Below are positions 13,742 to 42,266 of a DNA stretch of 47,036 nt, piece after piece. The stretch's first letter is position 1, and every line of letters begins with the position of its first letter. Source of the DNA: Bacteroidales bacterium (GTDB taxonomy: Bacteria; Bacteroidota; Bacteroidia; Bacteroidales; Tenuifilaceae); NCBI GenBank assembly GCA_016931855.1, contig JAFGDZ010000075.1, positions 1 to 47,036 of the forward strand, in the 5' to 3' direction. A model generated the notes under the pieces. That model was not told the origin of the DNA. It saw nothing but the letters and a program-made list of their open reading frames with translations, and searched no databases. The position numbers and the translations under genes are program-made.

Positions 13742-14917
13742 CTATGCGAAAGGGAACACCAACGTTACGGTAGATCCTTTTGTATGGTTGTTTTTGATAT
13801 CAATCTCCCCGTCGTGAGCCGTCATTATTAGCTTAGCCAGTGCCAGCTGTAAGCCGCTATCCTTATCTACAGGATCGGCTCCTGGAGCAAAAAGTTTGAA
13901 CTTATTCTCTAGGGCTTTCTCGGAGAAGCCTTTACCATTGTCTATAAACTCGCAAAGCGTACTTGTATTGGTTTTAGATACTTTAATCTCCACGTGGCTT
14001 CCTGCTTCGGAGTACTTTATGGCGTTGTCGAGAATGCTCTCAAAGCAGGTTTGAAGCAAAAGCTCGTTGCCAGTAACTACAGGTTCGGTGCTGGGTATTG
14101 TAATATGTAAGTTGATAGCCTTATCGGCAATGGCTTCGTTTAGGTTTTTTTGGGCGATGGCTATAATATCAGCAATATTTATGGCTGATGTGTTTAGCGC
14201 TCGTTTAGTTGTTCTAAGCTCGGTAAGAAGGATGCTGGTTTTTGAAAAGCGCTCTAAGCGAGCGGCAGAAATTTCAAGGTAATGAATCCAGTTAAAGAGA
14301 TCGGAATCCTGAAGTTGGGTTTTAAGCAAAGTAGCAAAGCCAATAATTCCATTTAAAGGGGTATTAATTTCGTGGCTTATTATGCGCAGAAAATCAGTTT
14401 TTGCCTCGTCGAGGGTATTGAGCTCCTTGTTGGCTTTTTGGAGCATAAGGTTAGCTTCGTTAAGATCCTTGGTGCGCTCAAGAACCTTCTCTTCAAGCCA
14501 TTTATTAACCTCCTTAAGTTTATCTCTACTATACTTTAGCTCTATGTGTGTGCTTACGCGGGCAAGCAGTTCCTCGGTGTTAAATGGCTTGGAGATGTAG
14601 TCGTGCCCTCCCGCTTTAAATCCTGTTACAATGCTTTCGCTATCGTTGTGGGCAGTGAGAAAAATGATGGGAATTTCCATCGTTTTTGGATTCTTGCGAA
14701 TTGCCTTGCAGGTGTCGTACCCATTAAGGCGCGGCATGTTTACGTCTAGCATAATTAGGTCGTAATAGGGCGAGGCTTCTAGTATTTCTAGCGCTTGCTG
14801 CCCATCGGTTGCAAAGCCAACGCTATAGTTTGCCTTTCGGAGTACGCTGCCTATTACCTGTATATTCTTGGGGTTGTCGTCAACAGCAAGAATTTTAAAG
14901 CGTTTGTTCGTTTCCAT
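13742..14917 (-). CDS. Response regulator-histidine kinase fusion (REC-HisKA-HATPase)
   Basis: This 391-residue cytoplasmic protein begins with a receiver domain (AVDDNPKN acidic pocket, phospho-acceptor Asp58 in LIMLDVNMP, conserved Lys in ISKPFNTEE). A coiled-coil linker follows, then a HisKA dimerisation domain with SHEINTPLNG (His about residue 182) and a HATPase_c domain (N box DNAIKYS, G1 DNGKGFS, a shortened G2 with SGLQLA where GLGLA is usual). REC-first kinases commonly receive phosphate from, or are coupled to, a partner kinase. The start overlaps the end of the nine-PAS kinase gene by 23 bases, so the two are translationally coupled. Output is unknown; neither protein has a DNA-binding domain. 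Confidence 0.9.
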   Translation of the reverse strand: METNKRFKILAVDDNPKNIQVIGSVLRKANYSVGFATDGQQALEILEASPYYDLIMLDVNMPRLNGYDTCKAIRKNPKTMEIPIIFLTAHNDSESIVTGFKAGGHDYISKPFNTEELLARVSTHIELKYSRDKLKEVNKWLEEKVLERTKDLNEANLMLQKANKELNTLDEAKTDFLRIISHEINTPLNGIIGFATLLKTQLQDSDLFNWIHYLEISAARLERFSKTSILLTELRTTKRALNTSAINIADIIAIAQKNLNEAIADKAINLHITIPSTEPVVTGNELLLQTCFESILDNAIKYSEAGSHVEIKVSKTNTSTLCEFIDNGKGFSEKALENKFKLFAPGADPVDKDSGLQLALAKLIMTAHDGEIDIKNNHTKGSTVTLVFPFA

Positions 14918-17900
14918 TTTTCTTTTCCTCCTTTAGTGCATTTAGATGCTGAATAAGCTCTTGAAATAGATTTAATGTGCCCATTAGTTGCTCAATGTCA
15001 AAAGAATCGGCAAAGGCGGAGATGTCGTCGCCTAGCTTGGTAAGGTAGGGTTGTGCTGTTTGCTGGCCTAGGCGTTTTAGCTCCTTTCCAAAAAGTTCCA
15101 TTTGGTCAATTTGCTGACTACGTAGCGCTTCTTCGTAAACGGGGAGCAGTTTCCCTTCTATGGTTTGGAGTAGCTTGTTAAGCGCAGTGAGGCTAAGGTT
15201 ACCTGCTGTAAATCCCTTTACCCCACGAATGGTATTGGTGGCCGAAGCGCTGGTTTTTGCATCGATATATTTAGTTAGTGCTTTTACAAGAGCCGCTACA
15301 TCAATGGGTTTAAGCAGGAACTCATTAAACAGCGTAAGGGAGAACTGCTCCTTTAGCACTATTTTTGAGGATGCCGATATGGCAATTATTGGTGTTGAGC
15401 TTATGCCCTCAGTTTTTCTTATCACCTTTGTTGCTTCGTAGCCATTCATAATGGGCATACGTAAATCCATAAGTATAACGTTGGGCTTGTACTGAATTGC
15501 CTTTTCCAGCGCCACCTTTCCGTTTTCGGCTTCGATGGTGGCTATCTCCGTTTTCTCGAAAAGATCTATGAGCAGCTTGCGATTCTCATCGTTGTCGTCG
15601 GCAATAAGAATTGTTGCAGGTTGGAATTGTACGGTTGTTATATCAAAGGCCGTTTCGTCATGCTTAATATCATCGGCATTGGCAATTTGGATACTGGGCA
15701 GGGTAATGCGGAATGTACTTCCCTTTCCAACGTCACTTTTAAGGGTTATGCTACCGCCCATGGCTTCAATCAGTTTTCGGCTAATGGTTAGCCCAAGCCC
15801 GGTGCCTCCATACTTTTTCTCTAGCTGCCCTTCTTGCTGGCTAAAGGCTTCGAATATTAGCTTTTGCTGCTCCTTAGGTATTCCAATGCCAGTATCCTCT
15901 ATGGAGATAATAAGGTCGAGTTGCTCTGTGGTACACTGGGTTTTGTCTAGGGTAATAATAACGCTTCCCTTATCGGTAAACTTAAGGGCGTTACCAATAA
16001 TATTGAATAGAATTTGCCTAACCCTAGTCTCGTCGAGGAGCAGGGCGCGGGGTATTGTTTTTTCAATTTCGATGTATAGCGCGATGTTCTTTTCGGCCGC
16101 TCGCTGGTTAAACATTAGCTCAACCTCCGATATTAGTTTGGTAATGTCAACTGGTTCTTGCTGTATTACCACCTTTCCCGACTCAATTTTAGACAGGTCA
16201 AGTATATCGTTAATAATTTTAAGCAGATTTTTTCCGCTTGTTCTAATGGAGTTAACCTGCGAGCGCTGCTTATTGTCCTTAACCGAGTTAAGCAGCAGCT
16301 CGGAGAAGCCAATAATGGCGTTCATAGGGGTTCTAATCTCGTGGCTCATGTTGGCAAGGAAAAGGCTTTTGGCGGTGTTTGCCGCTTCGGCCTTTTGTTT
16401 GGCCACCTCAAGTTCCATTTGTATTTGCTTAATATTGGTTACATCGAGCACCGAGCCTAGCACCAGCACTACTTTTCCCTCTTCAATAATTGGTTTTGCT
16501 GAGGATATTACATGGGCAACCGTTCCGTTGGTTCGCTTAATTTTTAGGTCGATGCTAAAGGGCTTGAGTTCCTTTTGTAGTAGCTCTAGTTTTTGTATAA
16601 GCTTAAGCCTATCCTCTTTGTAAATGTAACTTAGGTACTGGCTAAAGCTAGGGTTTCCGGCGTTGGGGTTTCTGCCGTGAATGGTAAACGTTTCCTCGGA
16701 CCAAATAAGCGATTGGTTTTGGGGGTAGTACTCCCAGTTGCCCATTTTGCTCATTTTTTGACTCTCTATAAGCTTTTGCTGGCTTATGTATAGCTCTCTG
16801 GTGCGCTCTTTTACCATCTCCTCAAGGTTCTCTTGGTAAAGGCGTAGCTCCTCTTCCTGTTTTTTTCTTATTGTTACATCGTTTTGTATTCCAACGTAAT
16901 GAGTAACTAATCCCCGCTCATTGTAAACAGGGGCTAGGTACAGCTCGTTCCAGAATAGTTTTCCACTCTTTGTGTAGTTCCGTAGCTCAACACGGCACTC
17001 TTTCCCTTCTTTTATGGCGTTGCGAATTGTCTCAAGGCCAGTCTGGTTGCAATCGTCTTTTTGCAGTAAACGGCAGTTTTTCCCTATTACCTCCTCCTGT
17101 TTGTACTCTGTAGTTCGCTCAAAGGCCTCGTTTACCTTAATAAGTGGCATATCGGGTTTGCGGGCATCAGCAATTACAACTCCATGGGTAGATTTTGCAA
17201 AAGCTCGGTCTAGGATTCGAGCGGCCTCTTCCTGTTTCCGTATTTGGGTAACATCTCTACCCTCGGCAATAAGAAGGATAACATTGTTGCTACTATCCTT
17301 AATTGGTGTTATGGTTAAATCAATGGTTATTTCAATGCCATCTGCACTTGTAATTTCAGCATCGTAACGTATAAATTCGCCGTTACACGCTTTTGCTACC
17401 GCGTCTTTAATTCTATTAAAGGATTGCTCGTTTCTACGCCAAACCTTGGAATCCCAGAATGGGTTGTGCTGCAAATCGTTCAGCGTAATGCCGCTAAAGG
17501 TTAACGCGCCTTGGTTTACTTCAATTATGTTACCCTTACTATCTAAAATTCCAATAAAGGAGAACATGCTGTTAAATATGGCTCTAAAGCGGGTTTCGCT
17601 TTCGCGGAGGGCAACTTCCACTTTTTTTCTATCGGTAATATCCTGAATAATACCGTGTAGCCTAACAACTTTTCCCTCATCGTTTTTAATAATCTCTCCA
17701 GCCTCGCCCCATACATCTCTAACGGAGCCATCGGGCCACACCAAACGGAACTCTAGTGGAGCGGGATTCTGCTCGTTAAGTGCAGCAATATTCCATTGGG
17801 TAAGCATTTGCTGGTCGTCGGGATGTACTGTTTGGTTTACTATGTCGTTCACGCTTCCGGAAAAGGTCTCCTTGTTTACGCCAAAAACCCGGTACAGCTC

Positions 17901-19946
17901 GTCCGACCATACTACCGAGTTGGAATCAACGTTCCATATCCAATGCCCTAGCCGTGCAATGGCTTGCGCATTGTTTAGGTTGGTTTCGCTTTCCCTAATG
18001 GCTTTTTCTGCTTGCTTTTGCTGGGTGATATCCTGTAGCATCCCCACCATAACCTGAGTAGCTCCATCGGAGCTTGAGTTAAGCATTCCCTCGTCAAGGG
18101 CGCTTATGTAATGCCCATCTTTATGGCGGATTCTATACTCAAGGTGGTAGTTGCTGTTTGTTGATATTGCCTCGTTCCATTTTGCAATTACAGAGTCCCT
18201 GTCTGAAGGATGAACTATTGCGTACCATGCCTTTACGTCGCCGTTAAGCTCCTCGTCGGAGTAGCCAAGCACATGCTCCGTACTATTCCCAAGCTTTATG
18301 TAACGGGTTTTAATGTCGAACTCGTAGGCAATTTGTCCCGATGCAGCCGTTGCTCTGTCGTAGCGCTCTTTCCATTGAGTGAGTTCCTTTATGGCCTCTT
18401 TTCGCTCTGTAATATCGTTAAATGTGGCGTAAACCTGATAAGGTTTAGTTTCTCCCATGCGGAATAGCGGTGCCGCATTTACGTTTAGCCACACGTACTT
18501 CTTTTTGCTAGGGTTGTAAATCCCCATGGTGGCATCTTTAACCGTTTTTCCTGAGTTTAGAGCAACCATTGCAGGATGCTCGTCTCCCTTAAATGGTATT
18601 CCATCCTCGTGTATTGCTTCCCAGTCGGAGTCGTACGAGGTTTTGCCTGTTAGCTGATCAAAGCTAAAGCCTAGAAGTTCCTGTGCTGCATAGTTTGCCG
18701 AGGTTATCTCTCCCTTTTCATTCTGAAAAACAACGCCTTGGGGGATGGTTTCAAAGAGTAATCGGAACTTCTCCTCACTTTTTCGCAGCTCAATTTCCGC
18801 ATTAATGCTATCGGTAACATTATTTATAAGTACATGTCGGGCTTTGCGCCCGTTGTACTCAATAAAGTGGAAGGTTATTTCAACGTAAATTACCTCGCCG
18901 TTCTTTTTTAGGTGCCTATGAACGCCTACCCTGTTGTACGGATCCTTTGTGCTTATTAGTATATTATTTAGTGCGTTTGCATCTTCTTTAGGTCTTATAT
19001 CGCGAATGGTAAGGGTTTGAAATTCCCCTCTGGTGTAGCCATACAGGGCAATTGCCGCCTCGTTTACTTCAAGTATTTTTAGCGACGCATCGTCGAAAAC
19101 CCACATAGGCTGTGGGTTTAACATAAAGAGCTGCCTATACTTCTCCTCGCTCTCCCTTACCTTTTTGCTAGCTTCTTTTTGCTCGTGAATATCGTAGGTA
19201 AAAAGAGTAACTTCCTTTACTTCATTGCCAATAATAACCGGGCTAAAAACCACATCGTACCAGTGGTAGTCGCGTGAATCTGTTTCGGCAATAAACTCAA
19301 TTTGCTTTGTCGATTTTGTGCTAATAGTATCTAAAAATGTTTTCCAAACGTTATCTCGGTGTGCAGGGTGGGTTATGTCCAGTAGGTTTATGCTATGGAA
19401 CTGCTCATCGGTTTCGCGCCTGCGCCTCCTGTTAACAAACTTGAAGTTGCCTTCTAAATCGGTAACTACAATGTAGCTGGGGTTGCTACTTAGCACCGAT
19501 TCCAGAAAACTTTCCGCTTTCTGAAACCTATCCTTAGCGAGAATATGTTCCGTTATGTCGGTAAAGGAAACAAATACTTGGTAGGGTTTTGGCTCTGAGC
19601 CGTTGAACTCGGGAAACGCACTTACCTGCAGCCACGTTATTGAGTTCTCCTTTTTTAATCCGATAACCCTATTGGTTACCGTTTGCCCTTTTTCTAGGGC
19701 AATGGCCGATGGCGTTTCATTTGCTAGTAGCGGCGTTTTGTTTGGCTTAATAAAGTGGAGCGGAATAGTTGTTGGGCTTAATATGGTGAGCTGTTGGCCT
19801 AAAACGCTCTCTGCCATTTTGTTGTATAGAATAACTTCGCCCCTGTTATTATAGTAAATAACACCCTGATCTATCGTATTAAAGAGCCTTTTGAATTGAT
19901 CTTCAGTACTACTATTCCCTAATAATTTAGTTTTTTTGCTACACAT
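14895..19946 (-). CDS. Soluble nine-PAS hybrid sensor histidine kinase
   Basis: At 1683 residues this is the largest protein in the window and has no membrane segment, so the sensor is cytoplasmic. I count nine PAS units (starting near FKRLFNTIDQG, AESFLESVLSS, YRQLFMLNPQP, FRLLFETIPQG, WKERYDRATAA, NLNNAQAIARL, FRAIFNSMFSF, ILDRAFAKSTH and KLIESQKMSKM), most followed by PAC-type YQVF...DITE segments. Then come HisKA (NMSHEIRTPMN, about 1200), HATPase (GTGLGLTISRKL, about 1380) and a receiver (ILMDLRMPIMNGYE, Asp about 1492). The last 100 residues are helical, like an HPt domain, but lack a recognisable HPt histidine motif. It is the first gene of a two-gene operon with the REC-kinase. Ligands such as flavin or heme cannot be assigned. 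Confidence 0.92.
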   Translation of the reverse strand: MCSKKTKLLGNSSTEDQFKRLFNTIDQGVIYYNNRGEVILYNKMAESVLGQQLTILSPTTIPLHFIKPNKTPLLANETPSAIALEKGQTVTNRVIGLKKENSITWLQVSAFPEFNGSEPKPYQVFVSFTDITEHILAKDRFQKAESFLESVLSSNPSYIVVTDLEGNFKFVNRRRRRETDEQFHSINLLDITHPAHRDNVWKTFLDTISTKSTKQIEFIAETDSRDYHWYDVVFSPVIIGNEVKEVTLFTYDIHEQKEASKKVRESEEKYRQLFMLNPQPMWVFDDASLKILEVNEAAIALYGYTRGEFQTLTIRDIRPKEDANALNNILISTKDPYNRVGVHRHLKKNGEVIYVEITFHFIEYNGRKARHVLINNVTDSINAEIELRKSEEKFRLLFETIPQGVVFQNEKGEITSANYAAQELLGFSFDQLTGKTSYDSDWEAIHEDGIPFKGDEHPAMVALNSGKTVKDATMGIYNPSKKKYVWLNVNAAPLFRMGETKPYQVYATFNDITERKEAIKELTQWKERYDRATAASGQIAYEFDIKTRYIKLGNSTEHVLGYSDEELNGDVKAWYAIVHPSDRDSVIAKWNEAISTNSNYHLEYRIRHKDGHYISALDEGMLNSSSDGATQVMVGMLQDITQQKQAEKAIRESETNLNNAQAIARLGHWIWNVDSNSVVWSDELYRVFGVNKETFSGSVNDIVNQTVHPDDQQMLTQWNIAALNEQNPAPLEFRLVWPDGSVRDVWGEAGEIIKNDEGKVVRLHGIIQDITDRKKVEVALRESETRFRAIFNSMFSFIGILDSKGNIIEVNQGALTFSGITLNDLQHNPFWDSKVWRRNEQSFNRIKDAVAKACNGEFIRYDAEITSADGIEITIDLTITPIKDSSNNVILLIAEGRDVTQIRKQEEAARILDRAFAKSTHGVVIADARKPDMPLIKVNEAFERTTEYKQEEVIGKNCRLLQKDDCNQTGLETIRNAIKEGKECRVELRNYTKSGKLFWNELYLAPVYNERGLVTHYVGIQNDVTIRKKQEEELRLYQENLEEMVKERTRELYISQQKLIESQKMSKMGNWEYYPQNQSLIWSEETFTIHGRNPNAGNPSFSQYLSYIYKEDRLKLIQKLELLQKELKPFSIDLKIKRTNGTVAHVISSAKPIIEEGKVVLVLGSVLDVTNIKQIQMELEVAKQKAEAANTAKSLFLANMSHEIRTPMNAIIGFSELLLNSVKDNKQRSQVNSIRTSGKNLLKIINDILDLSKIESGKVVIQQEPVDITKLISEVELMFNQRAAEKNIALYIEIEKTIPRALLLDETRVRQILFNIIGNALKFTDKGSVIITLDKTQCTTEQLDLIISIEDTGIGIPKEQQKLIFEAFSQQEGQLEKKYGGTGLGLTISRKLIEAMGGSITLKSDVGKGSTFRITLPSIQIANADDIKHDETAFDITTVQFQPATILIADDNDENRKLLIDLFEKTEIATIEAENGKVALEKAIQYKPNVILMDLRMPIMNGYEATKVIRKTEGISSTPIIAISASSKIVLKEQFSLTLFNEFLLKPIDVAALVKALTKYIDAKTSASATNTIRGVKGFTAGNLSLTALNKLLQTIEGKLLPVYEEALRSQQIDQMELFGKELKRLGQQTAQPYLTKLGDDISAFADSFDIEQLMGTLNLFQELIQHLNALKEEKKNGNEQTL

Positions 19947-32949: not shown

Positions 32950-33591
32950 ATGGCAAATGAACTAGTTTCAATGGCGCAGGCGTTTTCTGGCCTGCCAATG
33001 GACTCCCTAATCGGAGGTCCGCTAAATGCTGCCGCAAAAGCAAACGCAGCAATGGCTCTTACCCAAACATCTTTCATGCTCGACACGTGCTTTGTAAAGA
33101 AAGGGGACAACAACTACGAGCCCATCATGATTTCGATGACCCTAACAAGAGGCGTTATCCAAGCCAGCGAGGATCCATCAGCGGCTCCTGTTATCGACTC
33201 ATTCCAAACCAAGTTCGAGCTGCCGCTCATCACCATCATTCCATTGAACTCTTTAGCAGTAGATAATGTAGACATTACTTTCGAAATGGAGGTAAAGTCG
33301 AGCTACGGCGAAGACACCAAGGAAGAAAAGTCGAAGCAGCTTAAGGCCGACTCGAGTTTTGAGGCAAAGATCGGTTATGGGCCATTCTCTGCAACCATTA
33401 AGGGTAGCGTAAGTTACGATCAAAAAGAGTCGTCCTCAAAGGATACTCACTACCAAAAGAGCAACTCCGCTAAGTACACCGTAAAGGTACATGCCGGACA
33501 GCTACCTCTTCCTCAAGGCGTTACTACCATCATCAATGCGTTCTCCAAGTCTGTTGAGCCTATTGAGATCAAGAAGAAAGACGCTAAGTAA
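32950..33591 (+). CDS. DUF2589 domain protein, full-length form 1
   Basis: This 213-residue protein has all parts I associate with DUF2589: an N-terminal amphipathic helix (SLIGGPLNAAAKANAAMALTQ), a strand block with LDTCFVKKGDNNYEPIMISMTLT, the family core LPLITIIPLNSLAVDNVDIT followed by FEMEV, a Lys/Ser-rich loop, and the terminal KVHAGQLPLPQGVTTIINAF. No signal peptide is present. The domain function is unknown. Neighbours include two further DUF2589-like proteins, a DUF2589-like divergent protein, and toxin-like genes. It is the first structural gene after the LytTR regulators and is followed by a strong hairpin. Confidence 0.85.
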   Translation: MANELVSMAQAFSGLPMDSLIGGPLNAAAKANAAMALTQTSFMLDTCFVKKGDNNYEPIMISMTLTRGVIQASEDPSAAPVIDSFQTKFELPLITIIPLNSLAVDNVDITFEMEVKSSYGEDTKEEKSKQLKADSSFEAKIGYGPFSATIKGSVSYDQKESSSKDTHYQKSNSAKYTVKVHAGQLPLPQGVTTIINAFSKSVEPIEIKKKDAK

Positions 33592-33656
33592 CAGTACGTT
33601 TACCAGCAGCCATTCATTCCGAATGGGCTGAGTAAAGTAACTAAGTTAATTTAAAA

Positions 33657-33691
33657 GCTACTCGCCGGATTGTTAAAAGCCGGCGGGTAGC
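33657..33691 (+). other. Strong hairpin between the first two DUF2589 genes
   Basis: GCTACTCGCCGG (33657-33668) pairs with CCGGCGGGTAGC (33680-33691) with one G-T pair and an 11-base loop, 23 bases before the next ATG. No T-run follows, so it is more likely an mRNA-stability or differential-expression element than a terminator. A weaker hairpin (CAGCCATTC/GAATGGGCTG) lies at about 33607-33631. Confidence 0.6.
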
Positions 33692-33713
33692 CACTAACCA
33701 CAAACATTACAGA

Positions 33714-34313
33714 ATGGAAAATAGCACCACCCTCGAACAAACGTATGGCAAGCAGCTTCCCAAAGTTGCAGACCTACTTAGCGCGCCACTGGTAGCCGCT
33801 GCTTCTGCCAACTCGTTCATGGTAAGAGAGCAAACCCGCTTTTTAATGGACACCTGCTTCGTTTCAAAAGGTGATAATCGCTACGAGCCAGTTATAATTG
33901 AGATGACTCTCACAAAAAGTGTTATTTCCGAAGGCGACAACAATGAGGTAACGAAGCAGGAAATTACCTCAACCTTTGGTATACCGCTTTTAACGCTTGT
34001 CCCGCTCAACTCGCTCGCTGTAGACAATGTAGATATCGACTTTAGCCTCGAGATTGTTTCGTACGAGGCCTCCCAATCATCTGGCAACGAAAGCAGAGAG
34101 GAGCAAGCCGGGAACCCCAATCAAACAACAACCAAGGAGCCGGTGCTAACAGGTAAGTTGAGTTATGATTCTAGCGACAAGAAGGAGAACAGGAGCCACA
34201 ATGCATCGAAGCTCAACGTTAAAATTCATGCAGGCACAATACCCCTTCCCGTAGGGTTGACCACTCTTATAGACCTTTACGTGAAATCGATAAATGCAAC
34301 TCCCAACAACTAA
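33714..34313 (+). CDS. DUF2589 domain protein, full-length form 2
   Basis: This 199-residue paralogue of the preceding protein shares the N-terminal helix (LLSAPLVAAASANSFM), FLMDTCFVSKGDNRYEPVII, the core IPLLTLVPLNSLAVDNVDID and the terminal KIHAGTIPLPVGLTTLIDLY. The intervening loop is shorter and rich in Ser, Glu, Asn and Thr. No export signal is seen. Having two similar but non-identical copies suggests a hetero-oligomer or paired components. The gene ends 11 bases before a small zinc-ribbon gene, so co-transcription is likely. Function is unknown. Confidence 0.85.
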   Translation: MENSTTLEQTYGKQLPKVADLLSAPLVAAASANSFMVREQTRFLMDTCFVSKGDNRYEPVIIEMTLTKSVISEGDNNEVTKQEITSTFGIPLLTLVPLNSLAVDNVDIDFSLEIVSYEASQSSGNESREEQAGNPNQTTTKEPVLTGKLSYDSSDKKENRSHNASKLNVKIHAGTIPLPVGLTTLIDLYVKSINATPNN

Positions 34314-34324
34314 ATACAGATAGC

Positions 34325-34534
34325 ATGGATAGCAAACTACAAAAGTTAGATTGCCCCATATGCGGGAATCACATATTCTTTGAGGTAACCCGCCTGCTAA
34401 AAGGCGAATCATTCTCTTGTCCCAACTGCCAAAGTGCCATTAGCCTAAGTTCTAGCAGCACTACCACGGTAGAAAGGGCAATGGTAGAACTTGAAAAGTT
34501 TAGCGTTAAGCACAATATCACCACAAAAAAGTAG
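34325..34534 (+). CDS. Small zinc-ribbon protein
   Basis: This 69-residue protein has two CxxC knuckles, CPICGN (residues 10-15) and CPNCQ (about 32-36), spaced for one zinc ion, followed by a Ser/Thr-rich linker and a short charged C-terminal helix (ERAMVELEKFSVKHN). It is wedged between two DUF2589-type genes (11-base and 7-base gaps), so it is probably a partner or assembly factor for them. I do not recognise a named family. Confidence 0.75.
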   Translation: MDSKLQKLDCPICGNHIFFEVTRLLKGESFSCPNCQSAISLSSSSTTTVERAMVELEKFSVKHNITTKK

Positions 34535-34541
34535 AATAACT

Positions 34542-35000
34542 ATGATTAGCTTAAAGACATTTATTGATGCAGTACACGATTCTATTGTTGCTGCAAATGA
34601 CACGCTTACTGATAGCAGCGTGGGTATTATTGCCAAGTTTTTCAAAAAGGCCGACCCAGAAGGGAACGGTGAAGCGCTGATACCCGAATCGATAGTAGTA
34701 AAATACCCCGTAACAACAGATAACGGGGTTAGAGAAGTGGACGTGAAAGTTCCGCTGCTTACGCTGGCTCCCCTAACTTGCCCAACCGTTGATCAAGTTG
34801 AGTTCACCACCAAGTTCGAAATGGAAGTGGTTGACAACGACCTACAGCTTAACTTTTCGAGGGATAACAAGGATACCAAGGATGTAACCTCTAACCGTTC
34901 GGGAATATTGAAAATTATGATATCACCGCAGGATATCCCGGAAGGACTAAAAACGCTGATAGAAGGTTACGAGCGAATCCTTAAATCTCAAATTCCATAA
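34542..35000 (+). CDS. Reduced DUF2589-like protein
   Basis: I start at the ATG at 34542 (MISLKTFIDAVHDSI), because the longer frame from 34491 overlaps the zinc-ribbon gene. The 152-residue protein keeps the DUF2589 hallmarks in shorter form: an N-terminal helix (FIDAVHDSIVAANDTL), a strand region PESIVVKYPVTT, the core VPLLTLAPLTCPTVDQVEFT followed by FEMEV, and the end LKIMISPQDIPEGLKTLIEG. The middle loop is shorter than in the two preceding paralogues. Function is unknown. Confidence 0.78.
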   Translation: MISLKTFIDAVHDSIVAANDTLTDSSVGIIAKFFKKADPEGNGEALIPESIVVKYPVTTDNGVREVDVKVPLLTLAPLTCPTVDQVEFTTKFEMEVVDNDLQLNFSRDNKDTKDVTSNRSGILKIMISPQDIPEGLKTLIEGYERILKSQIP

Positions 35001-39767: not shown

Positions 39768-39955
39768 TTCACCTTTTGTTTAGTTAAGGATAATTATAAC
39801 CAAAGATGTGTACTGCGAAAATTAAAGGGTTGAACTCTCACGGTGACAAAGTCGAAAAATAGCAGTGGAGTCCAAAACCCATTTCTCCGGGATCAAACCG
39901 GCACACCAGCACCGCAAAGGTTGCTGTAGGAGATTGTTGCTCCTAAAATCAAATT

Positions 39956-39992
39956 ACACCTCTCCAAGCGAGTTCTTGGAGAGGTGTATATT
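39956..39992 (+). terminator. Strong terminator hairpin closing the DUF2589 cluster
   Basis: ACACCTCTCCAAG (39956-39968) pairs exactly with CTTGGAGAGGTGT (39975-39987) around CGAGTT and is followed by ATATTCT. The T-run is short. It overlaps the possible ORF start at 39984, which argues for the later ATG at 40050 for the next gene. An AGGAG...CTCCT hairpin lies just upstream at about 39929. Confidence 0.65.
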
Positions 39993-40049: not shown

Positions 40050-42266
40050 ATGTTAAGACGGCACCACAAAAGGCTTACTGCTAAGCTAACCATCGTTGCA
40101 GTAGCAGCACTAACCTTTACCATCTACTATCAGTTTTTTCTTAACTCTCGAAAAGAGAGAGCTGATCTAATTGCCTATGCCAACGAGCTAAGCTTGCAAA
40201 TGAGAGACAGCCTTTTTGCAGAGATTAAATGTACCGAGCAGGCTGTACATAGCGCAAGCGCAGCGTTAACCAAACAGCTACACCCTCAACGCACGCAAGA
40301 AATAGATTCGACGCGTTTAAAAACTCAGGTTACAACCATGATGGAAACCTGTAAAGATTTGACTGGTGCCGTTATCGCTTTAGAACGGGATGGACGTCTC
40401 GATAGCAGTTCCGTTTGCGTTCTTCGAAAGAAAGACTCCTTCCTCCATTTCCGCTTATCAACTATATACAATACACCCGATAAGCTACTGCAGGCTCCTT
40501 GGCACATGCTGCCAAATGGCAACACTTCGGGCTGGGTTGCCCCATACTATAGTATAAACGCAAAGCAAAAAAATGCGGCATACATTGCCACCATTACACT
40601 TGCCAACAACATCAAGTGCTATGTTGTGGCGGCATACACAACCAACGACATCTACAACCAAATAAACCGATGGAAATCGGGCAGGTTGGGATATCCCTAT
40701 ATTGTAAACCAAAATGGGGATTTTATTGCACATCCAGCAGATGATAACAGAGCTCTACTGGAAATTGGCAAGCAGTACAACGAAAGTACGCTCATTAGGC
40801 TAGCTAACGACATAAAAGAAGGCAAACTTCTTGATGCATGGAACTACTACCACCTCAATACGGTTTCTAAGGCCATGTGCTGGGAGCATGTTATTCCCAT
40901 TGAAAGGCTAGGCTGGTTTTTAGGTATTTCTGTAACCGACCAGCAGGTATACAGCAACCCGTTGTTCTTCAACCAACAGCGAAAACATAAAATCCTTCTT
41001 TCCCTTCTATTCTTTGGTGCTATTTTAGTTATTGAGGTTTTAGTGTTCTCCTTTCTTTTTAAGAAAGCCGATATGCTTAAGCTTACAAGCATTGCTATTT
41101 CCATCTTTCTTGCGTTGGAGATAGTTCTAATATTCATAACAAGCCTACGTTACCCATCGTACAACTTTTCTGACATGGATCTGCATAGTCTTTTGCCCAA
41201 TAAGAACTACCCCGCATCTGTCAATTGCCAATCTAGCACGGACTACATCCAACCAGCTAAGTGGCACAGCAGATGGAACTACTCCATGCTTTTGGACAAT
41301 GAAGGTACTGCCGACTACATAAAAACTTACCTAAGCAACTTTAACAAAAAGAGCTCTTTCCCATTTATGCAAATTCCAACTGGAATTTATATAAAAACAG
41401 TTCGCTTTACCGACTCATATGCAACAACTATATCTGGTTACCTCTGGCAGCTATACCCTACTGCGCTGCCCGTAAAGCATGGTGTAATCCTTCCTGATGC
41501 TGAGACATCATGTATCGAACTTATAGATAGCACCACCGTAATTCTTCCCAACTACCAAAAAGCAAAGTTCTATAGGTGGCATTTTACAGCCGATATTCGT
41601 GAGCAGTACTCTTTTAAGCATTACCCTTTCGACTACAACGCTTTATGGCTTAGAATCTGGAGCGTCGATTTTGAAAACAATGTGATTCTCACTCCCGATT
41701 TCAGAGCTTATAAACTGCTTCATCCATCGTTTAATCCTGGACTTGATAATGATATAACCCTAGCCGGATGGAGTATAAAAGGAAGTTACTTCTCCTTTAA
41801 AGAAAAAAGTTACAATGCCAACTTCGATCCGGAGCACAATCTTGCCCGCGTTTCATTCCCCGAACTCAACTTTAATATAATTATAAAACGGGAATACTTC
41901 GACTCTATCATTACCCGAATGATTCCCCTGTTGGTGCTGCTGTTCATGACCTACTCTATTCTTTGTATTTCGAAACGAGAAGATGCGCTGAATGTAGCCA
42001 TAGCTTGTTCCGGACTTCTGTTTATTGCCGTGCTAGAGCATGTTAACCTTAGGCGAAACCTCGAAAGTTCCGGATTAATTTACATGGAGTACTACTACTT
42101 TGTTACCTATTTTCTACTCATGTTCGTTTCGGTAAACATCGTGCTAAACAATCGGTTTTCCAAACTCCTATCACGCCCGCTAAACATCTCTAGGCTATCA
42201 ACTATAGCCTTTTGGCCCATTGCGCTACTCCTAATATTTATTGCTACAGCAGTCACCTTTTTCTAA
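40050..42266 (+). CDS. Cache-domain sensor fused to a pentameric ligand-gated ion channel-like subunit
   Basis: From the ATG at 40050 this is 738 residues. TM1 (about 10-30) is followed by a Cache-like extracytoplasmic domain (LGYPYIVNQNGDFIAHP, late GWFLGISVT), TM2 (about 312-334) and TM3 (about 340-362). The next region (about 395-612) is beta-rich and matches a pLGIC ligand-binding domain: TGIYIKTVRF near 444, a WxP-like GYLWQLYP, and YPFD (525-528), the bacterial counterpart of the Cys-loop FPFD. It runs into KREYF and M1 (MIPLL, Pro626). M2 (646-667) follows KRED, M3 is about 679-699 and M4 718-738 after a basic loop. The topology leaves the N-terminus inside and the C-terminus outside, as in pLGICs. 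No kinase or chemotaxis output is present. Confidence 0.78.
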   Translation: MLRRHHKRLTAKLTIVAVAALTFTIYYQFFLNSRKERADLIAYANELSLQMRDSLFAEIKCTEQAVHSASAALTKQLHPQRTQEIDSTRLKTQVTTMMETCKDLTGAVIALERDGRLDSSSVCVLRKKDSFLHFRLSTIYNTPDKLLQAPWHMLPNGNTSGWVAPYYSINAKQKNAAYIATITLANNIKCYVVAAYTTNDIYNQINRWKSGRLGYPYIVNQNGDFIAHPADDNRALLEIGKQYNESTLIRLANDIKEGKLLDAWNYYHLNTVSKAMCWEHVIPIERLGWFLGISVTDQQVYSNPLFFNQQRKHKILLSLLFFGAILVIEVLVFSFLFKKADMLKLTSIAISIFLALEIVLIFITSLRYPSYNFSDMDLHSLLPNKNYPASVNCQSSTDYIQPAKWHSRWNYSMLLDNEGTADYIKTYLSNFNKKSSFPFMQIPTGIYIKTVRFTDSYATTISGYLWQLYPTALPVKHGVILPDAETSCIELIDSTTVILPNYQKAKFYRWHFTADIREQYSFKHYPFDYNALWLRIWSVDFENNVILTPDFRAYKLLHPSFNPGLDNDITLAGWSIKGSYFSFKEKSYNANFDPEHNLARVSFPELNFNIIIKREYFDSIITRMIPLLVLLFMTYSILCISKREDALNVAIACSGLLFIAVLEHVNLRRNLESSGLIYMEYYYFVTYFLLMFVSVNIVLNNRFSKLLSRPLNISRLSTIAFWPIALLLIFIATAVTFF

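Follow-up and report, generated by a model that had tools for sequence, protein, structure and literature searches.

Fusions of sensor domains to prokaryotic pentameric ligand-gated ion channels (pLGICs) were described by Tasneem et al. in 2004 (PMC549065), with Cache/MCP-N fusions to such channels (ART-LGICs) reported from Cytophaga, Methanosarcina and Microbulbifer. Because MCP_N is placed within the Cache domain in PMC4822843, the MCP-N plus Cache of these fusions corresponds to a dCache domain. As the passages of PMC549065 on domain architecture put it, all bacterial forms consist of an N-terminal signal peptide, extra domains in some of them, a ligand-binding domain and four C-terminal helices. 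Ion channels appear among the Cache outputs in the corresponding section of PMC4822843 via VWA_N and VGCC_alpha2. The superfamily analysis of PMC4795631 discarded terminal domains and calls for an extension of the domain-architecture work of Tasneem et al.; its text also states that a biological role is known for no unicellular pLGIC. No structural or functional study of a Cache-pLGIC fusion was found in the open-licence literature, judged by titles and the beginnings of abstracts. Here we describe a gene encoding a predicted Cache-pLGIC fusion protein in a stretch of 47,036 nucleotides from a Bacteroidales bacterium of the Tenuifilaceae (GCA_016931855.1, contig JAFGDZ010000075.1, positions 1-47,036 of the forward strand), referred to as the window. 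Residues are counted from the ATG at 40050, and the borders of the segments compared for conservation were set by hand from the structural model.

40050..42266, + strand: Cache-pLGIC fusion gene, 738 amino acids plus stop; open reading frame, start backed by relatives
40086..40142, + strand: predicted transmembrane segment TM1, residues 13-31; hydropathy, helix in model
40143..40958, + strand: predicted dCache sensor domain with long N-terminal helix, residues 32-303
40281..40640, + strand: membrane-distal Cache lobe, residues 78-197; 30% mean pairwise identity, 7% invariant
40641..40958, + strand: membrane-proximal Cache lobe, residues 198-303; 60% mean pairwise identity, 36% invariant
40959..41057, + strand: predicted TM2, helix 304-336 with hydrophobic core 315-333; hydropathy and model
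41064..41150, + strand: predicted TM3, helix 339-367, predicted anchor of the channel extracellular domain; hydropathy and model
41151..41291, + strand: linker, residues 368-414; low model confidence
41292..41894, + strand: predicted pLGIC extracellular (ligand-binding) domain, residues 415-615; beta-rich in model and fold matches
41622..41633, + strand: Pro-loop YPFD, residues 525-528; sequence
41895..41969, + strand: predicted M1, residues 616-640, including P626; pre-M1 R614 just upstream
41970..42059, + strand: predicted M1-M2 loop and M2, residues 641-670; D645 before M2, S654 (6'), L657 (9'), R668 (20'), register from the GLIC alignment
42066..42158, + strand: predicted M3, residues 673-703; model
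42186..42263, + strand: predicted M4, residues 713-738, the C-terminal end of the protein; model

The C-terminal half had been read from the letters alone as a complete pLGIC subunit, and this reading is upheld by a sequence match to GLIC, by predicted-fold matches (18-20% identity to GLIC in the fold alignments) and by the landmarks of the superfamily. The signature given in PMC4795631 is [F/Y]PxD at the tip of the Pro-loop, the proline being absolutely conserved according to that part of its text. YPFD at residues 525-528 fits this signature, and both its proline and its aspartate are invariant across the 29 rows of alignment A6. The pre-M1 arginine (R614), a superfamily residue that forms a pair with the aspartate of the Pro-loop, and the M1 proline (P626) are likewise invariant columns of this alignment (R220 and P232 in its numbering), and the model predicts a beta-sandwich extracellular domain with four membrane helices after it. 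In M2, the 9' leucine is kept across the close relatives, as is the 6' serine except for an alanine in P0003 and P0007. The original prediction had also pointed to a comparison with pLGIC profiles and structures, and here the outcome was divided: GLIC was matched by sequence and by fold, but PF02931 and PF02932 matched none of the 14 clade proteins scanned, the window protein among them. As a control, PF02931 was listed for all three stand-alone Bacteroidia pLGICs examined, for two of them above cut-off. We consider that the sequence and fold evidence for a pLGIC outweighs the missing Pfam match. Neither of the contrary outcomes named beforehand, lack of any pLGIC relationship or another fold for the last four helices, arose. 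Since no clade protein scanned matched the Pfam pLGIC models, annotation that relies on Pfam would under-count such channels.

The N-terminal half gives predicted-fold matches to dCache domains, and in the model two PAS-like lobes are carried on a long N-terminal helix. The dCache Pfam score of the window protein is below the curated cut-off (24.7 bits versus 45), while the cut-off is reached by the relatives L068, L074 and L073; two proteins from green sulfur bacteria that were scanned gave dCache_1 matches below cut-off, with expect values (E) of 4e-4 and 0.003. Two NCBIfam matches are both far under their cut-offs. An amino-acid-sensor motif expression for dCache_1 matched 0 of 38 sequences, chemoreceptor-like ones included, a result that, lacking a positive control, carries no information. 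Hydropathy, the model and the dCache fold matches agree with the earlier assignment of a Cache domain bracketed by its own membrane helices.

Seven membrane segments were found by hydropathy, with starts at residues 13, 315, 345, 620, 647, 681 and 719, three before the extracellular domain of the channel and four after it, as had been anticipated along with a pLGIC-compatible topology. The tail before TM1 contains five K/R and no D/E and is predicted to be cytoplasmic. The sequence is consistent with the N-terminus inside, the Cache domain outside, the TM2-TM3 turn inside, and both the channel extracellular domain and the C-terminus outside. Loops on the cytoplasmic side span only 11, 8 and 19 residues.

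Whether this architecture had been described was left open by the original prediction. The Cache-pLGIC theme itself, being reported in PMC549065, has been known for about twenty years. Like the fusions presented there, the window protein joins in a single chain a Cache sensor and, after it, a pLGIC module, with matching domain order; unlike them, going by their description, it proceeds from TM1 to Cache and then through two further helices before the extracellular domain. The architecture passages of PMC549065 do not mention helices between Cache and the ligand-binding domain. The three extra predicted helices, and the occurrence in green sulfur hosts in which CheW was not found, are not described in the relevant passages of the open-licence literature examined. 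GLIC, the Gloeobacter pLGIC, differs in having neither sensor nor upstream helices, most chains listed being of ~310-330 residues. DeCLIC differs as well: for its two lobes, homology to regulatory regions is described, calcium-binding domains among them, the word Cache is absent from the text of both DeCLIC papers, and the passages on the lobes mention no intervening membrane helices. The dCache chemoreceptors, histidine kinases and SpoIIE-type phosphatases share the sensor fold and the TM-Cache-TM layout. Their output is cytoplasmic signaling, whereas here a channel is fused after a further helix. In the phylum sample, the full-length profile A3 gave matches to the Cache part only in 25 of 395 genomes, and the 15 of these genes whose open reading frame was inspected all end, as judged by eye, in kinase, phosphatase or chemoreceptor-like sequence.

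Conservation was measured on the window protein and P0002-P0007; P0001 was excluded as a near duplicate. Mean pairwise identity is highest in the M1-M2 loop with M2 (82%), followed by M1 (76%); the extracellular domain (58%) is similar to the proximal Cache lobe, and the distal lobe is far more variable. These values indicate that the pore and the proximal lobe are under stronger constraint than the distal lobe. In many dCache sensors the distal lobe is the ligand site. The pattern seen in these sequences would fit, as an indirect indication, a conserved coupling path with a changing ligand taste.

We propose, with a probability of about 0.58, that the protein is a Cache-gated homopentameric pLGIC, the pore of which is opened or closed by a small molecule binding to the Cache domain outside the inner membrane. 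The assembly would be a homopentamer, as suggested by family precedent and by the single channel match in the host genome, where the fusion gene is the only match of the pLGIC profile A5 (E up to 0.01). Ligand would probably bind in the variable distal lobe, with the signal passing through the conserved proximal lobe to TM2, the helix leaving the Cache domain, and on to TM3. From TM3 two routes are conceivable, one along the linker and one sideways, by contact, into the channel helices that form the outer ring; the pore would open at the girdle formed by L657 (9'). A preference for cations, based on the conserved acid D645 just before M2, is a weak guess; according to PMC4795631, selectivity in prokaryotes cannot be predicted from pre-M2 residues. 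The role would be to convert an outside chemical signal directly to ion flux or a change of membrane potential, rather than chemotaxis as such. A broader view, which we hold only tentatively, is that these proteins could form a distinct seven-pass pLGIC lineage, with five tethered Cache domains beside the pentamer, sideways gating via 15 extra helices, and chemical-to-electrical signaling also in bacteria without chemotaxis. Ligand gating in solved pLGICs is top-down, from which a sideways Cache route would differ. If the Cache domain does gate the pore through membrane helices, this would be a second opening mode for a Cys-loop-type channel. The sensor half belongs to a family with ligands that can be screened on the soluble domain, which opens a way to test what naturally stimulates a bacterial pLGIC.

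Several observations weigh against this proposal. The full-length single-chain model does not fix the relative placement of the Cache and channel halves, having a predicted template modeling score of 0.49 and a predicted local distance difference test value of about 30 in the linker. The M2 0' position is not basic, being N648 in the window protein, Asp in P0003, P0006 and P0007, and N or D throughout the seven close relatives; a basic residue at this position, reported in PMC4795631 for 79% (R/K), is usual and not defining. The upstream helices need not serve the Cache domain alone, since P0009 has three upstream hydrophobic segments and no Cache match. Heteromers are possible in some hosts, because genome G827, elsewhere in the order, carries two paralogous fusions, L068 and L074. 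The extracellular domain of the channel, being intact and conserved, may also bind ligand itself. This last point leads to an alternative that we regard as unlikely, though not negligible, in which gating occurs through the own extracellular domain of the channel (by protons, by calcium or at the classic site between subunits), while Cache only modulates the channel or concentrates ligand, a role proposed for such accessory domains by Tasneem et al. in the corresponding passage of PMC549065. Relatives without Cache exist, namely L002, a 386-residue channel without a Cache match, and P0009, and DeCLIC, which has an N-terminal accessory domain, is modulated by calcium according to PMC9897478. 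However, conservation of the proximal Cache lobe equals that of the extracellular domain, which suggests that the Cache domain is more than a passenger.

That the fusion serves chemotaxis, with ion flux steering motility, was suggested in section 8 of PMC549065, and the genome of the window does encode methyl-accepting chemotaxis proteins (19 matched stretches, 17 genes by manual count) and, as do G042 and G095, CheW. The same genome gave no flagellin match, and 0 of the 20 window proteins scanned are chemotaxis genes. Furthermore, CheW was found in none of the 14 fusion-bearing green sulfur genomes, whereas the same search was positive in 7 of 14 control genomes. This makes chemotaxis improbable as a general role; the argument is strong overall and falls short of proof for each genome, with four of the hosts under 90% complete. 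Least probable of all, to a degree that we give it very little weight, is a pseudo-channel with a non-conducting pLGIC part acting as scaffold or conformational relay. The lack of a basic M2 0' residue would suit it, but M2 is the most conserved segment and retains the 9' Leu and, outside P0003 and P0007, the 6' Ser, and the short cytoplasmic loops leave little to relay to.

The fusion is rare and patchy in its distribution, as the channel profile matched 9 of 393 genomes in the order sample and 7 of 395 in the class sample, and 14 of 86 in a green sulfur family carry the fusion. The order matches (E 1e-10 or better, with the genome of the window included) comprise seven genomes with full-length fusions, the channel without Cache in G095 (L002), and Cache and channel pieces in different frames in G926. 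In the class sample, which again counts the genome of the window, the remaining six matches are to stand-alone channels 313-366 residues long, with N-terminal stretches that look like signal peptides by eye. The family with 14 fusions, counted by genome (species), was assigned to the green sulfur bacteria because 13 of the 14 fusion-bearing genomes encode the chlorosome protein Bac_chlorC; ten of the 14 reach a completeness of 90% or more. Full-length relatives P0001-P0007 are 43-94% identical to the window protein, P0003 being identical to L072, and further ones are L003, L068 and L074, L070, L071, L073, the Lentisphaerota protein L008 and the 14 green sulfur proteins. L008 has an N-terminal region without a Cache profile match and is a fusion by layout only. 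The gene directly after it (L008:9042-10463) encodes a Peripla_BP_5 substrate-binding protein, resembling the periplasmic-binding-protein neighbors described in a passage of PMC549065. In another family of the phylum, the full-length profile matches by its channel part alone (E 1e-8) in a 398-residue frame at G099:C10:22446-23108.

Segments were scanned at a threshold of 1.4 in 28 full-length fusions, the 29th, L073, being left out. TM1, TM2 and TM3 are in matching places in all 28, and exactly three plus four segments were obtained in 17; in the other 11, one more candidate segment appears, M3 or M4 escapes detection, or the two deviations combine. The Pro loop of P0007 reads PLD, and the protein was hence left unsplit by the segment script. 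In L002 a single hydrophobic segment immediately precedes the extracellular domain, at a place corresponding to TM3, unlike the stand-alone channels of the class sample with their signal-peptide-like stretches. Based on the layouts of L002 and P0009, the upstream helices may be older than the Cache fusion, or may have outlasted it.

The evidence on whether Cache domains were captured repeatedly is divided. In BLAST comparisons of the window protein with eight green sulfur proteins, the channel halves gave E values of 4e-19 to 1e-26, and the Cache halves gave 0.001 to 1.7 in seven and no match in one. For the Cache of L003, the best match among kinases and phosphatases (E 7e-25) is nearer than any among the other fusions (2e-17 to the partial P0008, 1e-8 to the next). 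This pattern would suit independent captures of Cache domains. Running counter to it, the fusions fall together on the same side of a branch (support 67/83) in a Cache tree that was built without P0008 and L008, includes 8 of the 14 green sulfur sequences, predates L068-L074 and carries a long-branch warning.

Among the green sulfur loci L047-L057, a two-partner-secretion (TPS) transporter cluster (c1) is near the fusion in 6 of 11 and a TPS-domain secreted-partner cluster (c2) in 5 of 11, one member of each having been scanned and the fusion gene of L048 having been missed by the neighborhood script. This neighborhood was set aside as functional evidence, as the green sulfur hosts may be close kin.

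In the window, the fusion gene runs from the ATG at 40050 to the stop codon at 42264-42266. The mechanical open reading frame starts at GTG 39984; the start was set at ATG 40050 because this position is also where P0001 (94%) and P0002 (70%), its nearest relatives, start. The neighboring genes encode a peptidase M15, a LytTR protein and a TonB-type receptor, contents that do not suggest an operon with the fusion gene. With intergenic gaps of ~650 and 370 nt on its two sides, it is probably a single-gene unit. One further feature lies upstream.

39955..39988, + strand: hairpin whose inverted repeat pairs perfectly over 14 bp around a 6-nt loop; 61 nt upstream of the ATG

The predicted RNA energy of this hairpin is -23.9 kcal/mol (z -6.3) and a clear T-run is absent; it may be a terminator or a leader hairpin. 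A Bacteroidota promoter consensus matched twice in the window, versus 2.1 times by chance, with no match at the fusion gene. Elsewhere in the window, three consecutive DUF2589 genes occupy 32950-35000, and a gene on the - strand at 14895-19946 encodes a histidine kinase of 1683 residues, in which many PAS domains are combined with a receiver domain.
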